Shown here in pieces: positions 2,837-55,866 of a stretch of 64,000 nucleotides of DNA. The notes below the pieces were generated by a model. The model searched no databases, had not been told where the DNA came from, and worked only from the letters and a program-made list of their open reading frames with translations. The stretch's first letter is position 1; every line of letters starts with the position of its first letter. Origin of the DNA: Thuidium tamariscinum (lineage: Eukaryota > Streptophyta > Bryopsida > Hypnales > Thuidiaceae). A program made the position numbers and the translations under genes. The stretch lies in assembly GCA_947034885.2 (NCBI GenBank), contig OX344755.2, positions 9,984,501 to 10,048,500 of the forward strand, read 5' to 3'.

Positions 2837-3828
2837 GGTGGAAGCACCCAAAACCGTCCAAATAAGGAATTCAGCATAGTTGGAGGGAGATTTTCCTAAG
2901 ACTGATATTTTTCTAGTATTAGCGAGTGAAAATCATGAATATTCAAAAAAAGAAATAGAATTTTCGGGCATTGTATGTAATTTCTATGTTTTTTTTTGAA
3001 GTGATGGCTCCCTAGACCACTGAAAGTGTGCAATATAGGAGAGGGTTCTAAAACTGAGCAGGCTTTTGCAACCATCCAATAGGGGCTCTGAAATGGACAT
3101 GTGAACTTTGGAAAAATGAACTCTGGATTACAATAGAGCTTGATGAGATTTGTTTTTACTTCTTCAATGGATGGTTTAAACCAGTCTTGGTTCATTTCTA
3201 AACTAAGTAGCTAGGTGCCTACTAATTTAATTCAAAATTAGAATTCATTGTTCAACTACCTTCGTACAAGTATTGAAAAATCTGAAATAATGATTAAATC
3301 AAGCATTCATTTCAAATTTTGAAAGGGACACTTTAGAAACCATTTCAATTACTTTACACATTTAGCAATGCTAGTTTTTGAACAAGCCCTGATTTTTTTT
3401 TCAAAATATGCATGGATGGGTTTCCAAGGGCCTATGATCACAAATAGGGACCTACACCAGATTGTGTTTGAAAATTCATAACTAATTCAATAATGCTTCA
3501 AAAAATATGAAACGAGTTGTATTAGATTCCTCATCTATTTCTCTTTGATTGAAAAATAAACTAAAAATATTTTCATCTCAGGAGATACATGAAAAAGGCG
3601 GACCAGCCCTTAGATGAGCGGTTTCTGAGCCTCCTCCCTTAGGTGCACCCAAAATTGAACCCTGCAAAAATCAACACCCAGCCAACCAGATTTTCCTATG
3701 TGTCCTTCAATTGTGTCAACAAATTACAATCACACATGTGGCAAATACATTAACTACACTCTAAGGACATATTTGAGTGACTCTACAGTCCGGTGCAAGG
3801 TACATGGATGGGAATGGGTGTTTTTCCC
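2837..3828 (-). mobile_element. Family A repeat, copy A1, interrupted by family B
   Basis: The two family-A halves are at about 2837-3035 and 3641-3828. Terminal motifs are GGTGGAAGCACCCA on the left and TGGGTGTTTTTCCC on the right. Joined, the halves correspond to the roughly 385-bp copies at 17487-17873 and 55481-55862. The TA at the junction in intact copies is where the inner element lies. Confidence 0.85.
3036..3639. mobile_element. Family B-related element nested in A1 at a TA
   Basis: The right half resembles family B, sharing the block with ATATGAAACGA and the terminal stretch GAGCCTCCTCCCT. In intact family-A copies the matching position reads CAGTAGGTG, so TA was duplicated at 3034-3035 and 3640-3641. 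At about 604 bp this is longer than the usual 320-bp family B, and the left half is less recognisable. Confidence 0.65.
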
Positions 3829-4388
3829 TTAGTTGCAAAACGGCAGCAACGAAATAGAGTGATGAGCAGTGATGAGGCTTGAGATCAGTGATCATTCTAC
3901 ACCCTGAGAATCAAGGATGGATAATGTCTTTCGCTGAGAGAAATGAAGAATTGGCAACGTAAGAATTGAGAGGCTGAAAGCTCCAAATCAAATCTTTGTC
4001 CACGTCAATGATAAAGAGGTTGCACGTGTATATCACAACAAAATATCAGCTCTCAAGTAACAAGGTACCTCAAAGGACAGTTCTAAGTTGATAGCTTCCT
4101 GAGGCAAGGTGAGATCAGCCATCCAAAGGTGTCAACAAAAACTATAACAAATTGAGTTTCTTTCAACAGCTTGTGGAGCGCAGATATAACTCCATTCAGA
4201 TCTGTTGTAACCCACTGAAAGATTATCGTAGTGATATTAGCTTAGGTCTGCAACATTCCAATGTTAAAAGTTACAAGACAATTTGCAAAAAATAAATGAC
4301 AATTTGCTATCACACTCTTCTGAATGTGTCATGGTTTGTAAGTTCTGCAACCGCATTGAGCACGCACACACAAATTCGTCAAGAAATA
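3829..4388. other. Unassigned spacer
   Basis: No gene or mobile element could be recognised in this spacer. Confidence 0.4.
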
Positions 4389-8899: not shown

Positions 8900-8900
8900 A

Positions 8901-10064
8901 GGGAGAAACACCCATTCCCGTCCATGTACCTTGCAGTGGATTGTAGAGTCATTCAAATATGTCCCTAGAGTGCAGTTAACGTACTTGCCACATGTGTGAT
9001 TGTAATTTGCTGACACAATTGAAGGACACATAGGAAAATCTAGTTGGCTTAGTGTTGATTTTCGTAAGGTTCAGTTTTGGGTGCACCTATTGCACACTTT
9101 TCAATGGTCTAGGGAGTCATCACTTCAAACAAATATAGAAATTATACACAATGTCCAAAAATTTTATTTCTTTTTTTGAATATTCATGATTTCCACTCGC
9201 TAATACTAGAAAAATATCAGTTTTAGGAAAATCTCCCTCCAACTATGCTGAATTCCTTATTGGGACGGTTTTGGGTGCTTCCACCAACCGTCACTTGGGA
9301 ATTTTTGGGTTTCACGCATCCCGAGACGGACATCTGCAGACGGACACAGGCACTCCGTCAGCTGTATGGGGGAATGCCACACAGACTCCTGGGGGCCTAC
9401 AGTAGATTCGGCAAGGCGGTAGGAGGCGGGCAGCCCGGGCAGTCCGGGCAGCTTGCTCGGGCAGCTGTGGTCCTTCTGCGACAAGTGGACTGGTCAGTTG
9501 ATATCCGGGGTGCCTGCCCTTGCCACGTGTTGGACTCTCAGTCAGTGATGAGCTGGGCACCAGACAGAAGGGCCCACTCTGTGGGGCTGGCCGGAGTTCA
9601 GATTTTAACACTTGGGCACTCCCACTCTGACTGAAGGAACTCTGACTGAAGGAGCCCAATTGGCTTTCTGTGGCTCATGTACAGTGGAAACACCCAAAAC
9701 CGTCCAAATAAGGAATTCAGCATAGTTGGAGGCAGAGTTTTCTAATAATGATATTTTTGTAGTATTAGCGAGTGAAAATCATGAATATTAAAAAAAAACT
9801 AGATTTTTCAGACACAGTATGTAATTTCTACAAATTTTCAAAGTGTTGGCTCCCTAGACCTGCGGAACCGTCCTGTAGGTGCCCCCAAAACTAAACCCTG
9901 GAAAAATTAGCACTGAGCCAACCAGATTTTCTTATGTGTCCTTCTATTGTGTCAGCAAATTACAATCACACATGTGGCAAACACATTAACTACACTCTAG
10001 GGACATATTTGGGTGAGTCTATGGTCCACTACAAGGAACAGGTGCGGGAATGGGTGTTTTGCCC
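8901..10064. mobile_element. Composite: two inverted family-A copies around a GC-rich core
   Basis: Copy A2 (8901-9285, plus) and copy A3 (9684-10064, minus) form inverted arms of about 385 bp. Between them lies a GC-rich core (9286-9683). The outer ends are GGGAGAAACACCC and GGGTGTTTTGCCC, and TTA lies directly outside both (8898-8900 and 10065-10067). This could be one long-TIR element with cargo, or two independent insertions. The core recurs in inverted form next to copy A4 at 17874-18655. Confidence 0.6.
9286..9683. repeat. GC-rich core block (GGGCAG-rich)
   Basis: The core contains iterated GGGCAG/CCGGGCAGT units and a segment around 9477-9530 (GACAAGTGGACTGGTCA, then GATATCCGGGG). The same segments occur in reverse orientation around 18180-18300. 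Open frames on both strands overlap and have no known domain, so I do not call a gene. It may be captured sequence. Confidence 0.6.
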
Positions 10065-10074
10065 TTAAGCTTAA

Positions 10075-10295
10075 CCCTGAAGCACTCCGACGTCCATATT
10101 GTGGATGATGAACAGAGGGCTTCAAGGCATTGTTTCATTCAATTAACTTGGCATTTATCAAATGTAACACTTGAATTTAGAAAAGACAAACTTCCTTAAT
10201 GTCCAAATTCATTAAATTTTGGTAAATGATGTATCTGTACAAAGCCATAAGTGAAAATGTGCAAAAATTCTAAAAAGGATTGAGACGTTTCAGGG
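10075..10295. mobile_element. TTAA-flanked MITE with CCCTGAA ends
   Basis: TTAA lies on both sides (10071-10074 and 10296-10299). The ends are CCCTGAAGC and, inverted, CCCTGAAAC. A TTAA duplication with ends beginning CCC is the signature of piggyBac-type elements. At 221 bp there is no coding capacity. Confidence 0.75.
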
Positions 10296-17475: not shown

Positions 17476-17486
17476 TATGTATTGTA

Positions 17487-17873
17487 GGGAGAAACACCCA
17501 TTCCCATCCTTGTACCTTGTTGTGGACTATAGAGTCACTCAAATATGTCCCTAGAATGCAATTAATGTATTTGCCACATGTGTGATTGTAATTTTCTAAC
17601 ACGATTGAAGGACACATAAGAAAATCTGGTTGGCTGAGTGCTGATTTTCGCAGGGTTCAGTTTTGGGTGCACCTACTGCACACTTTCAGTGGTCTAGGGA
17701 GCCATCACTTCAAAAAAACATAGAAATTACATACAATGTCCGAAAATTCTATTTCTTTTTTTGAATATTCATGATTTTCACTCGCTAATACTTAAAAAAA
17801 CATCAGTTTAAGGAAAAGAATTTCCTCCAACTAGGCTGAATTCCTTATTGGGACGGTTTTCGGTGCTTCCACC
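17487..17873 (+). mobile_element. Family A repeat, copy A4 (complete)
   Basis: This 387-bp copy runs from GGGAGAAACACCCATTC to GGTGCTTCCACC and is flanked by GTA on both sides. It contains the sequence AATTAATGT, the uninterrupted form of the piggyBac target in copy A6. It also has the intact TA where family B entered copy A1. Confidence 0.85.
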
Positions 17874-18655
17874 GTACCAGCACTTCAAAATCCCGGCAGT
17901 GTACTGTACAGTGCATGTTCCCGTCTCCCCATTGGAGATGCCATCTTCCCCTCCACGATGTTCACGACGTGGGGCTTGCACATTATTGCGCCTCCTGAGA
18001 GAGAGCCTTGAAATCCATAACTGCCGAGTGTGAATGAGGGCCTTGAAATAAGTTATGCCGTCCCCGGGGCAGGCCGGCCAATGGGGCCGCCAGGGTGCCC
18101 AACAGCCCAAGTGTTAGGCCCCCACTGAGCGGTCCTTTCCGGTCCCCAGGATCATCCGAATCTAACTCGTGGCACGGACTGGCAGGCGCCCCGGATATCA
18201 GTTGACCAGTCCACTTGTCGCAAGGGAAGGACCACAGATGCTGCCCGCTCCCCAAGCTGCCCGAACTGCCCAAGCTCCTGGCTCTGCCCGGACTGCCCGA
18301 ACTGCCCGGCTCCTGGCTTCACTCAGGCCCGAAGCCGTTCCCCAAATAGCCGAGGTCGATGTGGCATTCCCCCATACAGTACAGGTCTGTTTGTCTGGAT
18401 TTGGGTGGGGGTGGGGAAAAGTAAAGAAAGAAAGAGTTCCCAAGAGGAATGTCCAACCAGGACTCCGGGCAGTCTGGGGGTGGGCCCCTGGAGTGAATGT
18501 GGGATTGGCCCAAAAGGGTGACCCTGCATGGGATAGTCGGTTCGACTTGAAGGGGAGGGAGGCAACCCATTTCCAACCACTTATTATTAAGCAATCAATC
18601 GAGCACATATATATATGGAGTGTGGGTACGTCGAGGGATAAAAATTCCCCCACGT
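17874..18655. repeat. GC-rich block, inverted relative of 9286-9683
   Basis: Around 18060-18400 the reverse complement matches the 9286-9683 core, including the CGGATATC/GGTCAACTGATATCC region and iterated GGGCAG units. Overlapping open frames on both strands reflect high GC content and show no known domain. Confidence 0.6.
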
Positions 18656-25800: not shown

Positions 25801-25802
25801 AA

Positions 25803-26493
25803 GGGAGAAACACCCATTTCCGTCCCTTTACCTATTCCTAGTTCCTAGAGTGTCACTAACTCTGTTCATAATAGGGTTTTTTTTTCCATTTCTTGTGAAG
25901 TGTCAAAGTGGCGCTATTTCATTTGATTGTAGAGCTCCAAATCTCAACATTCATCCATATATTACATAAAAAGTATCATATTAGCACATAATACATATCT
26001 ATCATTCTATTGTCATCCATTATTTGGCGATTTCATCCACTATTTAAATTTTTTTTGAAGTTTATTGGCGATTTGATCCAAAATTTCACTGTTTTTTTCC
26101 TATAGGCTTGGTGCCAAGCCAAAAAATTTGGTGCAATTTTGCACCAAATCGCCAGAAAAAAGAACCCTGGTCCATAAGTGTTCATTAAAGTATCTGACAA
26201 ATGTTTAACTCTAATTTGCTGACGCAGTTGTAAGACACATGTATAATTTTCATTCACTGACAACTGAATTCAGTAGAGTTCAGTTGAGGGTACACCTATA
26301 GGACGGTTCCAGTGGTCTAAGGAGCCAACTCTTTGAAAATTTGTAGAAATTACATACTGATTCCGAAAAATTTAATTTGTTTTTTGAATATTCATGATTT
26401 TCTCTCGCTAATACTAGAAAAAAAATCTGTTTTAGAAAAATATGCCTCCAACCATGCTGAATTCCTTATTCGGACGGTTTTGGGTGTTTCCAC
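25803..26493 (+). mobile_element. Family A repeat, copy A5, interrupted by a hAT-like MITE
   Basis: The left part (25803-25871) and right part (26170-26493) match other family-A copies, with ends GGGAGAAACACCC and GGGTGTTTCCAC. The 298-bp block at 25872-26169 has no counterpart in those copies. Confidence 0.8.
25872..26169. mobile_element. hAT-like MITE nested in A5
   Basis: The ends are TAGGGTTTTTTTT and, inverted, CAGGGTTCTTTTTT. They are flanked by GTTCATAA (25864-25871) and GTCCATAA (26170-26177), a 7/8 duplication. (T/C)AGGG ends and 8-bp duplications fit hAT. The interior repeats a TTGGCGATTT motif and its inverse. Confidence 0.75.
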
Positions 26494-26495
26494 TA

Positions 26496-26795
26496 TAGAA
26501 GGCTCTAAAAGTGAGCGTTGCTCTAAAAGTGATCATACCACAAGGGTATATTTTGGTTTCTGCAATGTACTTGTGGTGTGTATTTCAACAGGTGGTCGCT
26601 TGTAGTGACCACTGCGTTTGAACTTTTAAAATCCGTACCTAATTCTACATAGGTCTCCAAAAGATGAAACAACTTGGGTTCGATGCCAGTTCCATTTTCC
26701 TTCCTATGAAAATTTACCAGAAATTGATTTAAGGAGTTTCACTTCCTTGAAAAGGAAATCAACTCTTAAATGGTCGCTTTTAGAGTAGACTACCT
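26496..26795. mobile_element. MITE, family C (TA target), uninterrupted copy
   Basis: The left end has GGCTCTAAAAGTGA and the right end is the inverse of AGGTAGTCTACTCTAAAAGC. The interior matches, in reverse orientation, the core of the heavily interrupted copy at 61622-63451, and supplies its empty sites. Confidence 0.7.
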
Positions 26796-28565: not shown

Positions 28566-28793
28566 TAGATTGCATCTTTGTCAATTGTTTAGTTCAACCT
28601 TGTAGCAAAAATAAGAACTTTGAAAAATCAAAACAATCCTAAATCAACCCTATGCACTTTCACAATAGTTTTTGTAAAATTGACTACAAATACAAAATCA
28701 CAATTCTTACCAAATTGCAATTTCACAAATATTTTCTCTAGCTTAAAACAAGTGTCCACATGTTTATATTATACCACTTTTCGTTGATCATAA
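28566..28793. other. AT-rich spacer
   Basis: No gene or repeat was recognised between the TA-type element and family-A copy A6. Confidence 0.35.
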
Positions 28794-29388
28794 GGGCAAA
28801 ACACCCATTCCCGCACCTGTTCCTTACAGTGGACTATAGATTCACCCAAATGCATCAATAGACTTCCCTTAACCCCTCACCGCCTGAGGTGACCAAAACT
28901 GTCCCCTGCGAATTATTCGGACTGTCTCCACGCAGAGGAGAAGGTGAAAATTGTTGCGACTTTGCCGTGGTGAGGATTAGGGTTCAGTTTAGAATCAGCT
29001 CAAATCGTTTGCGGACAATTTGCGTGTACAATTCTTCCGTAGCTACTCATTGAATCAACCGATATCTGAAATCGGACATGGCGGTTTGTACAAATTCACC
29101 GGCAATTGCCGGTCCCAGACCGTTGGCATTGGATGCTGCCGCACAGGGACGGCAGTGTGGTACTCCATGGAGAGCTCCACTCTCCCTACTGTTTTTGCGA
29201 TGGGAGCTTGGATTGGTTGCACAATGTGGAGGACGAGGGTGCACGGAGTTTGTTGTAGGGTTCAATTTCGTACTCGTCCTGTATAGAAATGGTTGAGAGG
29301 AGTGGAGGGTTTTGCTTTGGCCATCATTTCTGCGAGGTTGGAGCTCTTGTGGTCTGTTCCAACAGAGGTTGTGCGCACCCCACCTCCT

Positions 29389-31188
29389 ATGCTCATGATC
29401 GTGGACGAAAGTTGCGGCGGGATACAACGATGGCCAGCGCCTTGCATAATGGAGCCGCTACAGTCGATGAGGTACAAGAAATCCAATGCACACTTTATGA
29501 ATGGGCGATTGCTGCAAGCGGAAACCCTGTTGTTGCGCAAGCAGTGGTCAATTGTCTGCATCAATGGCACTTATTTGAGTTGGAGAAGCCCAGTTCGCTT
29601 GCTTGGACAGAGTATCCTTGTAATTCTAGGTGGCGGCATTTGTGTTATACACACATTGCTCGTGCTTTGGGTTGGAAGCAAAGAATTTCTGAGGGAGATC
29701 CGAGAGGAATTCCTGCCCCTGTCTACGCCTTCATACGGACAAAGCTTTGGCCAGATTTACCAGTTGGCGATGAAGGCCCAGGCGAGATTGCAAGCTGCTG
29801 AGCGGGCTCAAGACCTGCAATCACAAGGGAATTTACAAGTTCTTCTGGAATTACCAGCTACCACACAACCAACAACAACATTGGAACTGGAGATAGTAAG
29901 TCCCGTCCATGACCACGAAGAGGAATTCATATCACAGTCCGATTTAGGGATTCCACGAGGTACACTTGCACGAAGATTTGGCAGGGGAGGGCCACGGGGA
30001 AGGCAAGGCAATCGACGAGGAGGGAGAACAGGTGGTCAATTCAACGGAGTGGTAGCAGTATCAACTGACCAGTTTAGCGATGGAGTACAATTCATCAATG
30101 CAGACAATGCTACTCGAGGTGGAGGAAGAGGTGTTGCGAATGGTCGTGCCAAAGGGAAGGGACGTGCTGCCCATAGTCGAGGTGCACCAAGAGGGTGGAT
30201 TCCGCCACCAATACAGCCGAATTCCACCTCCCCCCCTTCACTAAGACCGAGAGGACCACCAAGGGCGCGAGTACTGGATTCACCTCAATCACACGGCCAT
30301 CCATCCCGACGTGCTCGAGTTTCGCACAGCCCAAGGACACTTGGAGGTAGATCATCACCACAACACCTTCGAAGCAGCAGCTCTCCAATCACACCTCAAA
30401 ATCAGACACAAAATTCACCATTGGCCAATTCAACTCGAGAAGACTCCAACCACAGAGTTCAAGGACGTAAACAAGGGCGACTGAGGAACCTTCAGGGAGC
30501 GTTTGATAGGGCAGCACGAGTGGAAGAATGGATTCCTGATCTCACTACAGTGGACAATGGATTCGTACCTGATTTGGATCGTGCACACATTGCAAATGTA
30601 AATAACGGAGTGGAAGAGACACCACTATTGGGAGACGTAGCTCTTCCAATTCCCATGCACACACTTCCGTGTCAAGAAAATGGGCCCAACAACCGACAAG
30701 GAACAATATTGCCCGAGGGTGTGTGGGTGCGACTCGAATCCCTTGGATATGAATCACGGCAATGGGGAGGATTGGACGCATTCTTTGGAGATCCAGTGTT
30801 GGCACTATGGGTTGGAGATGTGCAATATTTTGGGATTCAATTTGGTGGAGGTGTTGGTTACCACCAGGTGAAAGTAACCGATTGCCTTTGCTTGGATTGG
30901 CGATTGTGGCCACATTTGCCTCAAAGTGGTGGACATACCACTCCGAATGCGCACCTTATTTCAGCGATCCATGATGGAACAACCACTGCGCTTCTCCAAT
31001 CAAGCGGCACTGCTATGTCAATTGGTGAATCCGTCTCTCAAATTGATAGCCAACATAGGCAAGGGCCAATGTTCGAATGTACTCCTCCGAGAGCAGGGCG
31101 AAGCAATGGAACAGCCATCGACTGTACACATTACGAGAGTCTTCATCAATACGATGGGTGGACATCAGATTCCCAGGATGCATCATGA
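29389..31188 (+). CDS. Upstream RGG-rich ORF of the piggyBac element
   Basis: The frame is open from about 29293 but begins with a non-ATG codon. The first ATG is at 29389 and later ones are at 29443 and 29777. It stops with TGA at 31186-31188. The centre (around 29960-30190) is basic and RGG-rich: GRGGPRGRQGNRRGGRTGG, then KGKGRAAHSRGAPRGW. This is followed by a P/S/R-rich disordered part. The last 180 residues have no family I recognise. The stop is followed at once by the in-frame transposase ATG. RGG segments often bind RNA or DNA, so a nucleic-acid-binding helper is possible, but this is inference. A second frame is also open at 29430-29801, so the true 5' structure, including any splicing, is unsettled. 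A GTAAGT hexamer lies at 29896-29901. Confidence 0.55.
   Translation: MLMIVDESCGGIQRWPAPCIMEPLQSMRYKKSNAHFMNGRLLQAETLLLRKQWSIVCINGTYLSWRSPVRLLGQSILVILGGGICVIHTLLVLWVGSKEFLREIREEFLPLSTPSYGQSFGQIYQLAMKAQARLQAAERAQDLQSQGNLQVLLELPATTQPTTTLELEIVSPVHDHEEEFISQSDLGIPRGTLARRFGRGGPRGRQGNRRGGRTGGQFNGVVAVSTDQFSDGVQFINADNATRGGGRGVANGRAKGKGRAAHSRGAPRGWIPPPIQPNSTSPPSLRPRGPPRARVLDSPQSHGHPSRRARVSHSPRTLGGRSSPQHLRSSSSPITPQNQTQNSPLANSTREDSNHRVQGRKQGRLRNLQGAFDRAARVEEWIPDLTTVDNGFVPDLDRAHIANVNNGVEETPLLGDVALPIPMHTLPCQENGPNNRQGTILPEGVWVRLESLGYESRQWGGLDAFFGDPVLALWVGDVQYFGIQFGGGVGYHQVKVTDCLCLDWRLWPHLPQSGGHTTPNAHLISAIHDGTTTALLQSSGTAMSIGESVSQIDSQHRQGPMFECTPPRAGRSNGTAIDCTHYESLHQYDGWTSDSQDAS
29430..29801 (+). CDS. Small overlapping ORF in the piggyBac leader (123 aa)
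   Basis: The ATG at 29430 has a strong context (A at -3, G at +4). The predicted protein has ordinary globular composition (VDEVQEIQCTLYEWAIAAS, then YTHIARALGWKQRI) and may be the real N-terminal coding frame here in place of the other one. It could be a separate protein or an exon joined to the downstream frame. No known domain was recognised. Confidence 0.4.
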   Translation: MASALHNGAATVDEVQEIQCTLYEWAIAASGNPVVAQAVVNCLHQWHLFELEKPSSLAWTEYPCNSRWRHLCYTHIARALGWKQRISEGDPRGIPAPVYAFIRTKLWPDLPVGDEGPGEIASC

Positions 31189-32931
31189 ATGGCGGAATAC
31201 CGCGACTTCACAGGTAATTCCTCTGACGATGAAAACTCTGATTGGGAAATTCTCAGTGTCAGTGACGATGCATTGGAAAACGATGCAGAGGTAGACCTCG
31301 TTGCTTACAAGGAATGGGGGTACCTTCATCAAGACCAGAAGGAAGCTCTTGAGAGGACTCGAGCTTTGTATGCTGATAGTGAGTGGACAGAAGAGACATC
31401 TATATTGGACAACAACACCGCTGATTTTCGGGGACCTTGCCCTGGGCCTACGCAACGCTTCCAACGGACGAAACAACCCCCTCGTTATTTTTTTGATTTA
31501 TGGTGGGATGATTTGACAATAGCTGAACTAGTAAAACAGACGAATGTATATGCTTGCCAGCAGTGCACTAACAAAAACGACCCTAGGAGAAGAGGTCGCC
31601 CTGCTGGTTGCAACGGTGGCCCGAAATGGAAAGACACGACTGTTATGGAGTTCCGAGCATTCTTAGGTATTGTAATTCTCATGGGTTGCAAGCTATGTCC
31701 GTCTGTTCGACATTATTGGAGTAAAGATCCATTTTGGAAGTGTGCATTGATTCCTCAAGTTATGAGTAGGGATCGCTTCGAGTGCCTCTTCCGTTGCCTT
31801 CACTGCGTGAATAACTCTACCCTGTGCCAAGATAAGAAGGCTGAGCAGTACGATAAGATTGGCAAGGTTCGATGGGTGCTAGAGCAGTTTGTCACTCGAT
31901 CAAAAGAGCTCTTCAATTGTGAAAAATTCCTCACCTGCGACGAGATAATGATAGCTTACCGCGGTCACTTTTCCCCAATTCGTCAGTATATCCCTGCAAA
32001 ACCAACTAAATATGGTATAAAATGTTGGGCTGCCGTTTCAAACCCCAGCAGGTACATATACAATGTGATTCCTTACCTTGGCAAGAATGGGGATGAGGTC
32101 GAATCATTGCTTGGTGAAAAGGTTATTCATCAATTGACCAGCGGTTTGAGTCACAGATCCCATACGGTGGTCTGTGATAATTTCTTTACCTCGCCACAAT
32201 TGTTTCACAATCTACTAGATCGAGGCATCTTTGCCACTGGGACGGTGCAGGGTAGACGTGTTGGATTTCCTTCAATCTTGCAAGGAATGAAGCGTGGTGA
32301 CCATCCGAGGAGCACCTTATTCTGGCGTATGCATAAATCTCACAAAATGGCAGCAACGACATGGTATGACTCGAAGCCAGTTTCCTTTCTTAGCACGTCT
32401 GCAAATCCCACGGGTGAAGCCATAGCATTGCGGTGGTTACGTGGTGAACGGCAGGAAATTCCTACAAGTCCACAACAGGCGGAGTATCAACTACATATGA
32501 AGGGTGTAGATTTGATCGATCAGATGCGACGTGATTACACAACCCAGTTCCACTCTCGGAAGTGGTGGCACAAGTTGTTCTTTTTTACACTGGACTCATC
32601 GCTTCAAAACGCTTGGGTGCTATATCGTGATGATCAGCTGCGTCGTGGAGAGAGGTGTAGTGGTGGACGGCTTGGCTTTTACATTGCTGTGGCGAAGTCT
32701 CTTATTGAGCGTGCTGTTTCACTCCCTCGAACATGCAGCTTGAATAACATTCACCCGAATGCCATTCATTATACTGTGCAGCTCCCTGGTGGTTTGCGTC
32801 GGAGGTGTCGGGTTTGTAAAAAAAAACAGCGTCGCGTTTGCAGAGCCTGCCAATGGTTGCCGTGTTGTGATGAACCATGCTTCGCTAAGCTCCACTCACA
32901 AAGAAAGTGGGCCTTACGCCTCTCTCAGTAA
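31189..32931 (+). CDS. PiggyBac transposase (580 aa, intact)
   Basis: The enzyme cuts and reinserts the element at TTAA. The acidic N-terminus (SSDDENSDWE, residues 11-20) is typical of the family. The DDD core is complete. D251 lies in TCDEIMIAYRG, followed by IPAKPTKYGIK. D330 lies in VVCDNFFTSPQLFHNLL. D441 and D444 lie in KGVDLIDQMRRDY, matching D268, D346, D447 and D450 of the cabbage-looper enzyme. The C-terminal cysteine-rich domain, which binds the end repeats, spans about residues 540-568 (C540, C543, C551, C554, C559, C560, C564). Length is close to the 594 aa of the type member. There is no internal stop or intron. The ATG abuts the TGA of the upstream ORF in the same frame, so expression may use reinitiation, an internal promoter or splicing. 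Confidence 0.95.
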   Translation: MAEYRDFTGNSSDDENSDWEILSVSDDALENDAEVDLVAYKEWGYLHQDQKEALERTRALYADSEWTEETSILDNNTADFRGPCPGPTQRFQRTKQPPRYFFDLWWDDLTIAELVKQTNVYACQQCTNKNDPRRRGRPAGCNGGPKWKDTTVMEFRAFLGIVILMGCKLCPSVRHYWSKDPFWKCALIPQVMSRDRFECLFRCLHCVNNSTLCQDKKAEQYDKIGKVRWVLEQFVTRSKELFNCEKFLTCDEIMIAYRGHFSPIRQYIPAKPTKYGIKCWAAVSNPSRYIYNVIPYLGKNGDEVESLLGEKVIHQLTSGLSHRSHTVVCDNFFTSPQLFHNLLDRGIFATGTVQGRRVGFPSILQGMKRGDHPRSTLFWRMHKSHKMAATTWYDSKPVSFLSTSANPTGEAIALRWLRGERQEIPTSPQQAEYQLHMKGVDLIDQMRRDYTTQFHSRKWWHKLFFFTLDSSLQNAWVLYRDDQLRRGERCSGGRLGFYIAVAKSLIERAVSLPRTCSLNNIHPNAIHYTVQLPGGLRRRCRVCKKKQRRVCRACQWLPCCDEPCFAKLHSQRKWALRLSQ

Positions 32932-33099
32932 TCTTACGGTTTGTTGTTTCTTGTTTGTTTGCGTAGAGTGGTTGTTGCGAACTTCTCCTGCATCCCCGGG
33001 ATCAGAGTCGAAGAGTGGAGGGCACTGTCGACGACGTCGACTAGTATCTGCAAGGCACTTAAAGTGACGACACCTTTGATCGTCGAGGCTGCCGCATTC

Positions 33100-33156
33100 T
33101 TGCACCTTCGACAGTGTTGCCAGTCGATCTTGCACCTTCGACAACGTGCCAGTCGA
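33100..33156 (+). repeat. Two 30-bp direct repeats in the piggyBac 3' part
   Basis: TTGCACCTTCGACA starts at 33100 and again at 33130, each followed by a GCCAGTCGA stretch. Subterminal repeats in piggyBac elements can serve as transposase sites. That role is inferred. Confidence 0.7.
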
Positions 33157-33496
33157 CCTCGAATTCTAAGAATATTGTTTTTCATTTACAGGACAACCAC
33201 CAGTGTAGTTAGCATCGTTTAGTTTTTGTGAATTTTAGCTACGTGGTAGCTTTTGCCCAAGCTGCATGCGCCTTGCAGATTTGAATACTTACAGGTCGTA
33301 GAACGGACTCAGTCGGGGACTCAGTGACAATTTTTGGGGACGTTGGGCTGCTCAGACATTATCGTGGCCTTTGATGTGCTCACAGGACCTTATGGCCAAA
33401 TTTTGTGAATTTTGAGCGATGTTTGTGGTTGCAATTCGGTTTTATACTTTTGTCGAACCTGTCACCCTGTTTTGCTTGCTACTTGTAACCGCAGGG

Positions 33497-33559
33497 AACC
33501 GCCGTGGGAACCTCAGCGTCCGGTCATGGTAGTGTGCTCAACCGGTTCCCACGGTGGTT
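33497..33559. repeat. Inverted repeat in the piggyBac 3' part
   Basis: AACCGCCGTGGGAACC (33497-33512) pairs with GGTTCCCACGGTGGTT (33544-33559) at 15 of 16 positions across a 31-nt loop. It could be a transcript hairpin, a terminator or a subterminal binding site. Confidence 0.75.
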
Positions 33560-34266
33560 TTAGCCACCTTCAACCACATTACAAATTCGCTCAGGATCAC
33601 GTTACTTGAATTTTTGTTCTGTAATTTTGGGAAGTGAAGCAAGAGGTGCTTTCCTTGCTTCACACCAATTTTAGATTCCTCCTGAGAACTATAGCCCTCG
33701 CTACAGGTGTTGAAGCACTCGGCACTGACACAAAAGTCCGTGTGTTTTCGGATTTCGGATCCAATCGGACCTTCGCATCGGCTAATCTGATCACTCGATT
33801 TTCAATCAAGACTTTGCTTTGAGCCCCGAAGTATGCCTACTTTCCATCGCTACGGTTACTTTCTGTCAATTTCCGTTTTGCAGCATGCATCTGTGTGTTT
33901 AGTTCGACCCTCCTCAGAACCTCCTCCGACGGTGCGTTTGAGTGTGGGCGGTGAGGGGTTAATGTATTCACCACATGTATGATTGTAATTTGCTGACACA
34001 ACTGAAGGATACATAGGAAAATTTGGTTGGCTGAGTACTGATTTTCACAGGGTTCAATTTTGGGGGCACCTACAAGACGGTTCCACAAATCTAGGGAGCC
34101 AACACTTTGAAAATTTGTAGAAATTACATACTATATCCAAAAAATTTAATATTTTTTTTGAATATTCATGATTTTCACTCACTAATACTAGAAAAATATT
34201 ATTTTTAGAAAACATTGCCTCCAACTATGCTGAATTCCTTATTTGGACGGTTTTGGGTGTTTCCAC

Positions 34267-35085
34267 TGTATAGTAAAGTGAATAATTTCAAAAGGATCCC
34301 AGTTTTATATCATCACAATCAATGAATGAAGACCATTGTATGTGTTCATTGCAATGTATTATAAAAAAAATTGGGCCTTAAAGAAAAAAAGTCTCCATGC
34401 AACCTACTCAAAACTACTGAAAAAAACATGAGTTTCCAATCCAGACACCTACTTCAAGACAAAGGGAGTAATCAATATCTACGAAGCTGCTTAATACCCT
34501 AAACCCAAAATAATGACCTTCGTACAAGCAAAACATGAATGAGGAGCTGCATCACCGTGATAATATTAATCCACAAAGCACCGATCAGAGCTGAGGAACC
34601 AGGATCTGAACCTGTCCATCAAGACAGGAGAATTGGAAATGTAAACCCAAAGAACCAACCACCAAATGCGGCATAATTTAATTAATTAATTTTTAATAAA
34701 TAACAGACTTGCCTTAGTAAACATTGGCCTCAATTTTCGACAAATTCAGATCCTCTACATTCAATTTCACCACCAGCCGGGTGCCAAATTCATAAACTAC
34801 AGGTTGGGTTACCGGGCCATGGGCCACTAGGGTAGGGAGCCCTATCATAGTGCATTAAAGGGTTTGCCATTCTGTATCTGAAGTATCAGACCACCAATCC
34901 GGCTAATAAATTGAAACCCACGTACCAAGCTAAGAAAGTGAATTCACTTCACCGTTCAATGTACACAATTCCTATTTTGGAATTTCATTTCAACAACAAA
35001 GTATAAAATAACAGATGGATGTTACTTTAGCCATACCGATTGCCTTGGACCCTTTCCCTGCACATTAACACACCTTACTTGGGGT
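34267..35085. other. 3' flank of the NHX gene
   Basis: This lies downstream of the minus-strand NHX stop and probably includes its 3' UTR. No further gene was recognised. Confidence 0.4.
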
Positions 35086-39939: not shown

Positions 39940-40436
39940 AATTTCCCCTTCCTGAACCTCCTCCGAGACGGGAATTTCGAGCACAGCAGGTCCTCAAGGA
40001 AGGAGTTTCAAAGAATGATTCTCGTCCAGTGAAGCTCCGCCGTGAAGCGCCTCTGCAAAAACACCAACAAACACAGGAGCGCAAGTTCAGCCTTCGGAGC
40101 CAGGATGGTTCCGATTTTCCTCCAACTACCGAGGTTGAAAACGGCGAAGTATCGACTGATAATTGATACCATGTTGTGGTCCCTTCCGGGTATCGTCAGG
40201 GTGTATTCCGGGCATCCACAGGATATCATCAACGACAAAGAAAAGGAACGAGCGAGCTTGCTATCCCCACAGCAGAAAGGAAGCCCCCTCGCCCGCTTCG
40301 ACCACAAGCTCGCGGAGGAGCAGCGTGGCCGCCTGCACGGGCTGGATCGATTGCAGTCTTACGCTCAGGATTGCAGCATTTCGACCAACAACCAATTCTT
40401 CCGCCAGGCCACAAATCCATCAGTTACTTCAATGGA
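39940..40436. promoter_or_regulatory. Shared divergent promoter region, NHX / PheRS
   Basis: About 0.5 kb separates the NHX ATG (39939, minus) from the PheRS ATG (40437, plus). Both 5' leaders and both promoters must lie here, or within the first exons. The PheRS frame is open upstream to 40176 without an ATG. No core promoter box could be assigned with confidence. Confidence 0.55.
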
Positions 40437-41834
40437 ATGTATGCATTGAGGAGCTCAGTGTCGTCTGTGCTTCGCGGCAGAGCACAGACTGGACCTCCCG
40501 TTCTCGCGATGGCGGCGTCTCTGCGCATTTCGTTGTTCAGTCCCAATCTCTTCGTCGCCTCATCAGGCACCTCATCAGGTTCTCTTAAACCAATTTTTTC
40601 AATTGGGTCCGCGAAATTGGACGCTACCCGTGCTTCGGGACAGAAATTGAGTTGGCAAGCTGAGTGTGTGAGGCGAGGGTTCGCAACTGCCGCGTCGTCT
40701 GCTGTTGATGTTGGCGGATTGACAATCAGCCGCGACGAGGTCGTGCGCGAAGACGACCCTTCTAACAACGTCCCCGACTCCGTCTTCTCCAAGATCGGCA
40801 TGCAGCTCCACACTCGTGAGAATCACCCTCTCGGCATTCTCCGCAATGCCATCTACGGCTACTTCGACGAAAACTTTCCAGATGTTTTCAAGAAATTCGA
40901 CACGCTCAGCCCCGTCGTGTCCGTGAAGGCGAATTTTGACGACGTACTAACCCCCCCGGACCACGTGAGCCGGAGCTACAACGACACTTACTACGTTGAC
41001 GCAACCACCGTCCTTCGTTGCCACACGAGCGCACATCAAGCTGAGATGCTTCGGGAAGGGCATACGCATTTCTTGGTCACCGGGGACGTGTACCGTCGGG
41101 ACGCCATCGATGCCACGCATTACCCTGTTTTCCACCAGATGGAGGGGTTCCGTGTGTTCAACCCTAGTGAATGGGAAGCTGCGGGAAGCGATGATGGAAC
41201 TGCATTCGCCGCACAAGAGCTCAAGAAAACGCTGGAAGGGTTAGCTCGTCGCCTGTTTGGAGAAGTCGAGATGCGGTGGGTTGATTGCTATTTTCCTTTC
41301 ACCGATCCTTCTTTTGAGCTTGAGATTTTTTTTCAAGGGAAGTGGATGGAGGTGCTGGGATGTGGAGTCACGGAGCAAGCTATTCTTAAGAATAATGGAC
41401 GTGATGGGACGGTGTCCTGGGCGTTTGGGCTTGGCTTGGAGCGGCTGGCGATGGTGCTGTTTGATATACCTGATATTAGGTTATTCTGGTCGAACGATTC
41501 ACGGTTTACGTCGCAGTTCAAGTCCGGGCAATTGGGGACGAAATTCAAACCCTACTCCAAGTACCCACCGTGTTACAAGGACATCAGCTTCTGGATCAGC
41601 GAGCAGTTCACGGAGAATAATCTGTGTGAGGTTATAAGAGGGATTGCGGGCGATTTGGCGGAGGAGGTGGTGTTGATAGATGAGTTTACAAACCCTAAAA
41701 AGGGTTTGACGAGCCATTGTTACCGAATTGCGTACCGGTCCATGGAGCGGTCGCTCACGGACGACGAGATTAATGGGCTGCAATTGCAAGTGCGGGAGCA
41801 GGTGGAAAGCAAGCTCAAGGTTACACTCAGATAA
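40437..41834 (+). CDS. PHERS: Organellar phenylalanyl-tRNA synthetase, intronless
   Basis: This monomeric class II enzyme charges tRNA-Phe in mitochondria and plastids. The ATG at 40437 gives 465 residues. The first about 85 ([17 protein letters not shown] onward) are rich in S, R and A and lack acidic residues, like a targeting peptide. A second ATG at 40509 could give a shorter form. The catalytic core has HTSAHQAE (196-203), GDVYRRD (216-222), [12 protein letters not shown] (motif 2, 228-238), FELEIFF (293-299), and motif 3 [14 protein letters not shown] (329-342). The C-terminal anticodon-binding FDX-ACB domain runs from [12 protein letters not shown] (about 375) to the end. The body is very close to the Arabidopsis dual-targeted enzyme. 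The coding sequence is one exon, unlike the multi-exon Arabidopsis gene, and no retroposition hallmark was seen. Confidence 0.95.
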
Positions 41835-55327: not shown

Positions 55328-55480
55328 CCAACGCCCATTACGACCCGTCTTCATCGTCTCCGACATCAAGCTCCCGAGAGCTAGACGTCGGAACGACATG
55401 TACTTCTGTTGAAGATTTTAGAACGTCCCAGTTTGAGAAGGCTTGGAAGTTGCATGTTTCTTCGTATAGAAGCAACTTAC

Positions 55481-55862
55481 GGTGGAAACACCCAAAACCG
55501 TCCAAATAAGGAATTCAGCATAGTTGGAGGCAGCTTTTTCTATAAATAATATTTTTCTAGTATTAGCAAGTGAAAATCAAGAATATAAAAAAAAAATTAG
55601 ATTTTCAAATGCAATATGTAATTTCTATGATTTCTCAAAGAGTTGGCTCCCTAAATCGTTGAAAACTGTTCAATAGCTGCCGCCAAAGTTGAACACTCCT
55701 AAAATGAGTAGTGACCCAATTAGATTTTGGTATGTGTCTTTAATATGAGTAAAAAAATTATAGTCAAACATTTGGTGAATAGATTCATTAAAATCTAGGA
55801 ACACAATTAGATGAATCTAGAATCCAATGCAAGGTACAAGTGCAATATTGGGTGTTTCTCCC
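55481..55862 (-). mobile_element. Family A repeat, copy A7
   Basis: This 382-bp copy runs from GGTGGAAACACCCAAAACC to GGGTGTTTCTCCC. TTAC lies directly outside both ends (55477-55480 and 55863-55866). It starts about 150 bp after the CNGC stop codon. Confidence 0.85.
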
Positions 55863-55866
55863 TTAC

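Follow-up and report, generated by a model that had tools for sequence, protein, structure and literature searches.

PiggyBac "cut-and-paste" transposons are known mainly from animals and fungi, and piggyBac is a main tool for animal genome engineering. The stretch of DNA analysed here (C7:9984501-10048500, 64,000 nucleotides, hereafter the window) belongs to a plant genome of 363 Mb in 19 contigs and contains a piggyBac-like element, which raises the question of whether such a transposon has recently been mobile in a land plant, and what became of it afterwards. The element, designated family I, lies at 28873..33958 (coordinates are those of the window, forward strand unless stated otherwise). 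It is very probably a TTAA-flanked piggyBac of a moss, one of five copies that likely spread recently from one active source and were later probably silenced.

Family I and its five full-length copies

The element measures 5,086 bp between two perfect TTAA target duplications at 28869..28872 and 33959..33962. Its terminal inverted repeats are perfect over 12 bp, with CCCCTCACCGCC at 28873..28884 and the exact reverse complement GGCGGTGAGGGG at 33947..33958 on the reverse strand, and begin with CCC, as is typical of the piggyBac superfamily. The open reading frame at 31189..32931 encodes 580 amino acids, forms the core of the transposase with its DDD catalytic domain, and matched PF13843 (DDE_Tnp_1_7) at 1e-76. 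A sequence search of the PDB returned piggyBac 6x67 at 1.7e-33 and piggyBat 9c0f at 7e-28; we take 6x67 and 6x68 to be the piggyBac of Trichoplusia ni, and 9c0f is presumably a bat element. The protein was modelled with AlphaFold2 using 48 of 64 sequences (the window protein and the database proteins P0001-P0063), giving a mean predicted local distance difference test (pLDDT) score of 86, where an earlier model from seven sequences was poor (pLDDT 53). The best PDB match of the model was again 6x67 (E 1.3e-27), followed by 9c0f (E 7e-24), while matches to giant-virus proteins were weaker and reflect just the common DDE fold. The three catalytic aspartates are D251 (31939..31941), D330 (32176..32178) and D441 (32509..32511), conserved in 48/48, 47/48 and 46/48 aligned rows respectively. 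Membership in the piggyBac superfamily is clear from the TTAA duplication, the CCC ends and the DDE_Tnp_1_7 domain with its DDD triad. The Kolobok superfamily likewise targets TTAA; it was rejected on the grounds that PF13843 was the sole Pfam match at E up to 1 and that the nearest folds were piggyBac and piggyBat, although no Kolobok reference was compared directly.

A whole-element DNA search of the genome, with 35/35 candidates scored, identified five full-length copies, namely the window element, L009, L063, L064 and L065, and no sixth. Beyond these the search gave three internally deleted derivatives (76-92%) and then partial matches, mostly at 64-75%. All five copies are 5,086 bp long with no indels, have TTAA on both sides and lie within five different flanks. 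Pairwise they differ at 10-16 of 5,086 positions (0.20-0.32%; identity 99.7-99.8%). The variation is star-like, since 31 of the 32 variable columns are private to a single copy, and in 26/32 the change relative to the majority letter is C>T or G>A. These 26 changes fall in CG (10), CHG (8) and CHH (8) contexts; CG and CHG together make up only 36% of the cytosines of the element, so that 18/26 represents an excess (binomial p 5e-4). Four adjacent private differences in L065 (opposite window 33409-33412) lie beside a TTTTGTGAATTTT repeat and may be one small templated event.

Taken from the sequences of the copies, the likely history of family I is a brief amplification from a single source, after which each copy decayed independently in a manner resembling the deamination of methylated cytosines. 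The five copies would have arisen by cut-and-paste transposition of an element from one recently active source, the transposase presumably binding the CCCCTCACCGCC ends, excising the element with its three aspartates and inserting it at TTAA, by homology to the solved piggyBac transposases. DNA methylation likely silenced the inserted copies afterwards, as C-to-T and G-to-A changes predominate among their differences, with an excess in CG and CHG contexts. With mutation rates of 7e-9 to 9.4e-9, the divergence of 0.12% per copy would correspond, as an order of magnitude, to ~0.1-0.2 million years or generations.

A member of a host repeat family of ~390 bp (family A) is split by the window copy; its left part lies at 28793..28868 and its right part at 33963..34270. 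When joined, the flanks align without gaps across the junction to other copies of the repeat. The insertion point is spanned by five copies in the window (8900-9284, 9680-10075, 17486-17876, 55478-55865 and, partially, 3640-3831), of which four have TTAA at this point and one (55865-) TGAA. The uninterrupted copy at 17486..17876 has an empty TTAA at 17562-17565, and the uninterrupted inverted copy at 9680..10075 (reverse strand), also with TTAA present, is the nearest to the target copy (87%). The empty sites seen are paralogous and not allelic.

The host was identified as a moss by the tree of a phenylalanyl-tRNA synthetase (PheRS) of plant organelle type encoded at 40167-41834. In a tree of 30 proteins, comprising 29 of the 120 relatives listed and the window protein, it clusters with Physcomitrium and sequences lacking a name, beside Sphagnum (9 rows, 98/92). 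Other genes of the window encode a senescence-domain protein and a GDA1/CD39 apyrase, and one match to a cyclic-nucleotide-binding domain falls below the Pfam cut-off.

The preliminary description had presented the element as a complete, apparently young piggyBac in a plant genome, with perfect TTAA duplications and 12-bp inverted ends. The duplications and ends were found as described, and the PF13843 match, the 6x67 sequence and fold matches and the PheRS tree agree with a piggyBac in a moss. Its youth is upheld by the copies 0.20-0.32% apart, each at its own TTAA, and the insertion into a dispersed repeat was borne out, the visible empty sites being paralogous copies with TTAA kept in 4/5. 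A search for other copies sharing the ends yielded the five full-length copies, together with the short elements described below. "Complete" holds for the ends but not for the gene, which has a stop codon at 31186-31188 where 5/5 database relatives spanning the codon have Trp.

Several further observations concern the host repeat. Seven copies occur in the window (8900-9284, 9680-10075, 17486-17876, 28793-34270, 55478-55865, 2838-3831 and 25802-26497), with imperfect 13-bp inverted ends, GGGAGAAACACCC and GGGTGTTTCCACC; the repeat looks like a miniature inverted-repeat transposable element, but its duplication is not clean. The copy at 2838-3831 contains an insert of ~600 bp at 3039-3639 whose outer ends are similar; GGAGAGGGTTCTAAAACTGAGC has an imperfect inverted counterpart, judged by eye. 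The copy at 25802-26497 contains ~325 AT-rich bases (25860-26184) at the same TTAA point; these are without clear inverted ends, and a second TTAA insertion is not claimed there.

Other lineages, short elements and the origin of the clade

The genome contains at least 116 piggyBac transposase loci by PF13843, all above the family cut-off, a lower bound from a search in which 116 of 659 candidates were scored; the same search of 14 control genomes gave no matches. With the window transposase as query at least 76 matches were obtained (75 of 774 candidates scored). Transposase matches of 36-72% identity are dispersed over the genome, many of them with stops, and piggyBac loci occur on each of contigs C1 to C10.

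Eleven PF13843 loci of near-equal score have a common open frame of 1,023 codons and constitute a second family, family II. A DNA search with L073, in which 40 of 119 candidates were scored, gave 11 full-length copies, all at ~100% over 5,088 bp, and the next relatives were partial matches at 67-71%. The copy in L073 (L073:1245-6343; C2:19453544-19458642) and that in L074 (C5:1287720-1292818) differ by 1 mismatch in 5,099 aligned positions (99.98%). The bit scores imply ~1 mismatch to L073 in 8/10 copies, and ~2 and ~3 in the others. If the single difference between L073 and L074 arose in L073 itself, most family II copies likely have one and the same sequence, a result derived from bit scores and not from reading the copies. 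The alignments end at TTAAs in 11/11 copies, with the flanks read for two, so the sequence beyond differs. The ends of the two families are alike in 10 of the first 12 bases, both starting with CCC, and the transposases are 33% identical. Judged from these near-identical copies, family II is likely active now and is the best candidate for ongoing transposition. At genome scale, the evidence of two or more recent bursts is of greater interest than the window copy on its own.

Additional lineages were recognised. L067 represents a third lineage with a 5,488-bp element that has perfect 14-bp ends at TTAA; its transposase is 39% identical to that of the window, and that of L068 36%. No convincing ends were found for L066 within the fetched stretch, and just imperfect ends for L068. 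Two equal-scoring transposase matches at C8:23933584-23935260 (reverse strand) and C8:23940791-23942467 (forward strand) have their starts facing, ~5.5 kb apart, and may be an inverted or nested pair.

The 16-base word TTAACCCCTCACCGCC, made up of TTAA and the family I end, occurs 376 times in the 363-Mb genome while the reversed control word occurs 0 times, so its frequency is not due to chance. Among 100 of these places listed there are 34 facing pairs and 32 unpaired places. The pairs delimit elements of exactly 961 bp in 18 cases, 958-979 bp in 24, 872 bp in three, 72 bp in two and 5,086 bp in one. TTAA was present on both sides of 20/20 fetched elements, an expected outcome, since that word was the basis of their selection; selection by exact ends also means that elements with a mutated end are not among the 20. 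Twelve copies of 958-961 bp show a mean difference of 3.0% (0.3-4.7%). BLAST aligned none of them to the 5-kb element, so the short elements have little in common with it beyond the ends. Of the 32 unpaired places 30 were fetched (L029-L058): 21 contained relatives of the 961-bp type with main stretches at ~75-97%, one (L039) a transposase at 60%, and the other 8 had no match of at least 60 bases to any of five references. L010 (C1:722046-722125) is a 72-bp element that consists of little besides two ends between TTAAs. Transposases of this kind likely mobilised the short elements that share the ends, acting in trans.

A tree of 42 transposases, built with 37 of the 63 database proteins, joins five moss elements and the environmental proteins P0001-P0006 in a single clade (100/100), separate from 31 others, including three named animal sequences. 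An earlier tree of 62 of the 63 database proteins, with P0047 left out, likewise placed the window transposase and P0001-P0006 together (100/100). The deep lineages and their decayed relatives point to a long residence of piggyBac in this genome with repeated bursts, rather than one recent transfer, although single families, family I included, may have entered or been transferred recently.

The rival that survives best is horizontal transfer, that is, the recent acquisition of the whole clade from an animal, a fungus or another distant host, and it is considered unlikely. It would account for the near-identical full-length copies without full-length intermediates in families I and II, and for a G+C content at third codon positions of 0.459 in the transposase against 0.618 and 0.578 in two host genes; the few names shown among the 63 database relatives also include no plant, though most rows are nameless. 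A newcomer would not be expected to have relatives as distant as L067 and L068 in the same genome, grouping with other moss elements and P0001-P0006 in one clade, or to have left matches down to 36% identity, many of them stopped. The preliminary description had proposed recent acquisition or recent activity. Recent activity is upheld by the near-identical copies of both families, but since several deep lineages occur in one genome and group together, recent acquisition is unsupported for the clade. The transposase tree that it had suggested gave the moss elements and P0001-P0006 a clade of their own, apart from rows among which three named animal sequences were included. Contamination, which it had also raised, is very unlikely because the element is nested in a host repeat and piggyBac loci lie on each of contigs C1 to C10.

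The transposase frame and its upstream module

The frame of the transposase is open upstream to 29287 except for the one stop at 31186..31188, which is private to the window copy among the five. The codon is Trp in all the database relatives that cover it (P0001 and P0003-P0006) and in the moss element L066, and the likeness to P0001 carries on upstream of the stop. Two copies, L063 and L064, have this frame uninterrupted over 29287-32931 (1,214 codons from stop to stop); in the window copy, L009 and L065 it is stopped at three different codons. The possibility that the stop is functional, giving two proteins or read-through, was considered, as an ATG lies directly behind it and the 580-residue part spans the piggyBac core; since all four sister copies have a sense codon at this position and the relatives have Trp, this is very unlikely. 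The same open core and ATG would allow a shortened protein to be made from an old immobile remnant or a gene domesticated under host selection. Perfect ends and TTAAs, five copies without indels and a divergence of 0.2-0.3% speak against a remnant, and private stops in 3/5 copies argue against selection keeping the protein; this explanation is highly improbable. That the near-identical copies are artefacts of assembly or contamination is scarcely credible, for although copies up to 99.98% alike are what duplicated contigs would give, the five family I copies have five different flanks with TTAA at both ends, the 11 family II alignments stop at TTAAs with differing sequence beyond, and the host repeat around the window copy continues in register on both sides.

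Upstream of the stop the frame encodes an N-terminal extension (29782..31185), RGG- and proline-rich and then with a conserved stretch, for which a database search returned nothing, Pfam no family and the PDB nothing meaningful. Further upstream, at 29430..29756, lies a module of 109 amino acids (module A) in another frame than the transposase, with similar segments in other moss elements. Relatives of module A were found in all eight other moss elements compared (best non-self E 3e-37 to 2e-7), although for L068 the L067 version had to serve as query; some of the nine elements may come from one lineage. The module was not found in family II when searched with the window version alone. Relative to the transposase frame it is shifted by +1 in 7/9 elements (the relation for L071 being calculated by hand) and unshifted in 2/9 (L069 and L072). 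A private frameshift lesion near 29773 was ruled out: the change of frame is common to the five family I copies, which have no indels, and so is not damage to the window copy, and the module recurs in other moss elements. Programmed +1 shifting is not universal, given the two elements in which the frame is the same. Module A is most likely the first exon of the transposase, the alternative being a separate protein.

At the other end of the protein a cysteine-rich segment (32806..32895; residues 540 to 569) contains 7 Cys and 1 His. Its alignment to the corresponding segment of 9c0f scored 3.6 bits, which is not significant by itself, and no Pfam zinc-finger match was obtained at E up to 1. Downstream of the transposase, a 30-bp direct repeat (TCTTGCACCTTCGACA...) occurs in about two copies at 33098-33159, which are possible binding sites. 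Scans of viral contig and genome contig collections found no relative.

A wider reading, of moderate probability, is that piggyBac is naturally active in this moss. Several lineages of a clade marked by a long N-terminal extension and an additional upstream module would have expanded in separate recent bursts, with family II ongoing and methylation and deamination shutting down older copies. Several points weigh against the main account. The window copy is broken and is not autonomous as it stands, and with three of just five full-length copies broken the activity of family I may have ended. The open frames were counted from stop to stop and not from a start codon. The ages of family I depend on the mutation rates assumed, and the methylation reading is based on 26 changes across five copies, with 8 in CHH. 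Lastly, the common ends of the 5-kb and 961-bp elements do not prove that one moves the other.

Comparison with known systems

The superfamily itself is known, and plant records of it speak against novelty at that level. PiggyBac is listed among the superfamilies in all groups studied, land plants included (PMC4438587, Table 2), is named in a list of plant superfamilies (PMC10794571) and is described as isolated from insects, fungi and plants (PMC10813416); in Ceratopteris it was reported as 1,230 pieces totalling 122 kb, ~100 bp on average (PMC6890710). One further record holds just the word "piggybacking" (PMC10619864). In the excerpts of these surveys the PiggyBac records are class labels or general statements, with no full-length TTAA-flanked plant element among them. 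Searches of the open-access literature brought up no title or abstract opening describing a full-length piggyBac of a moss or other land plant, subscription papers and repeat databases being outside this scope. A parallel case reported in a moss is that of PpTc1 and PpTc2 of Physcomitrella, Tc1-like members of an animal and fungal transposon group that recently amplified there (PMC4054914), which differ in belonging to another superfamily, Tc1/mariner, with a DD34E triad.

The novel features are a moss host, likely activity, a long N-terminal extension and a conserved upstream module. If the reading is correct, no live piggyBac would have been demonstrated in a land plant before this moss system, which would also be the source of a native plant TTAA cut-and-paste tool. 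More than 100 transposase loci, two young families with open frames and 376 end words would widen the host range of live piggyBac, and the moss copies would provide a series in which to follow, copy by copy, how a plant DNA transposon is silenced and decays.

The piggyBac of Trichoplusia ni has ends that start with CCC and a transposase of ~600 residues. The moss element resembles piggyBac 6x67/6x68 in its TTAA target, CCC ends and DDD triad, and this is its best PDB match by both sequence and fold. It differs in its moss host, its end sequence and an identity of ~23% over the fold alignment, and also in length, its 1,214-codon frame (stop to stop; core 580 amino acids) standing against a chain of 594 residues and thus departing from ~600. 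PiggyBat 9c0f has the same fold and superfamily, at ~22% identity. P0001, a JGI metagenome protein from a 2.7-kb contig, is 60% identical over 81% and has the same Trp motif.

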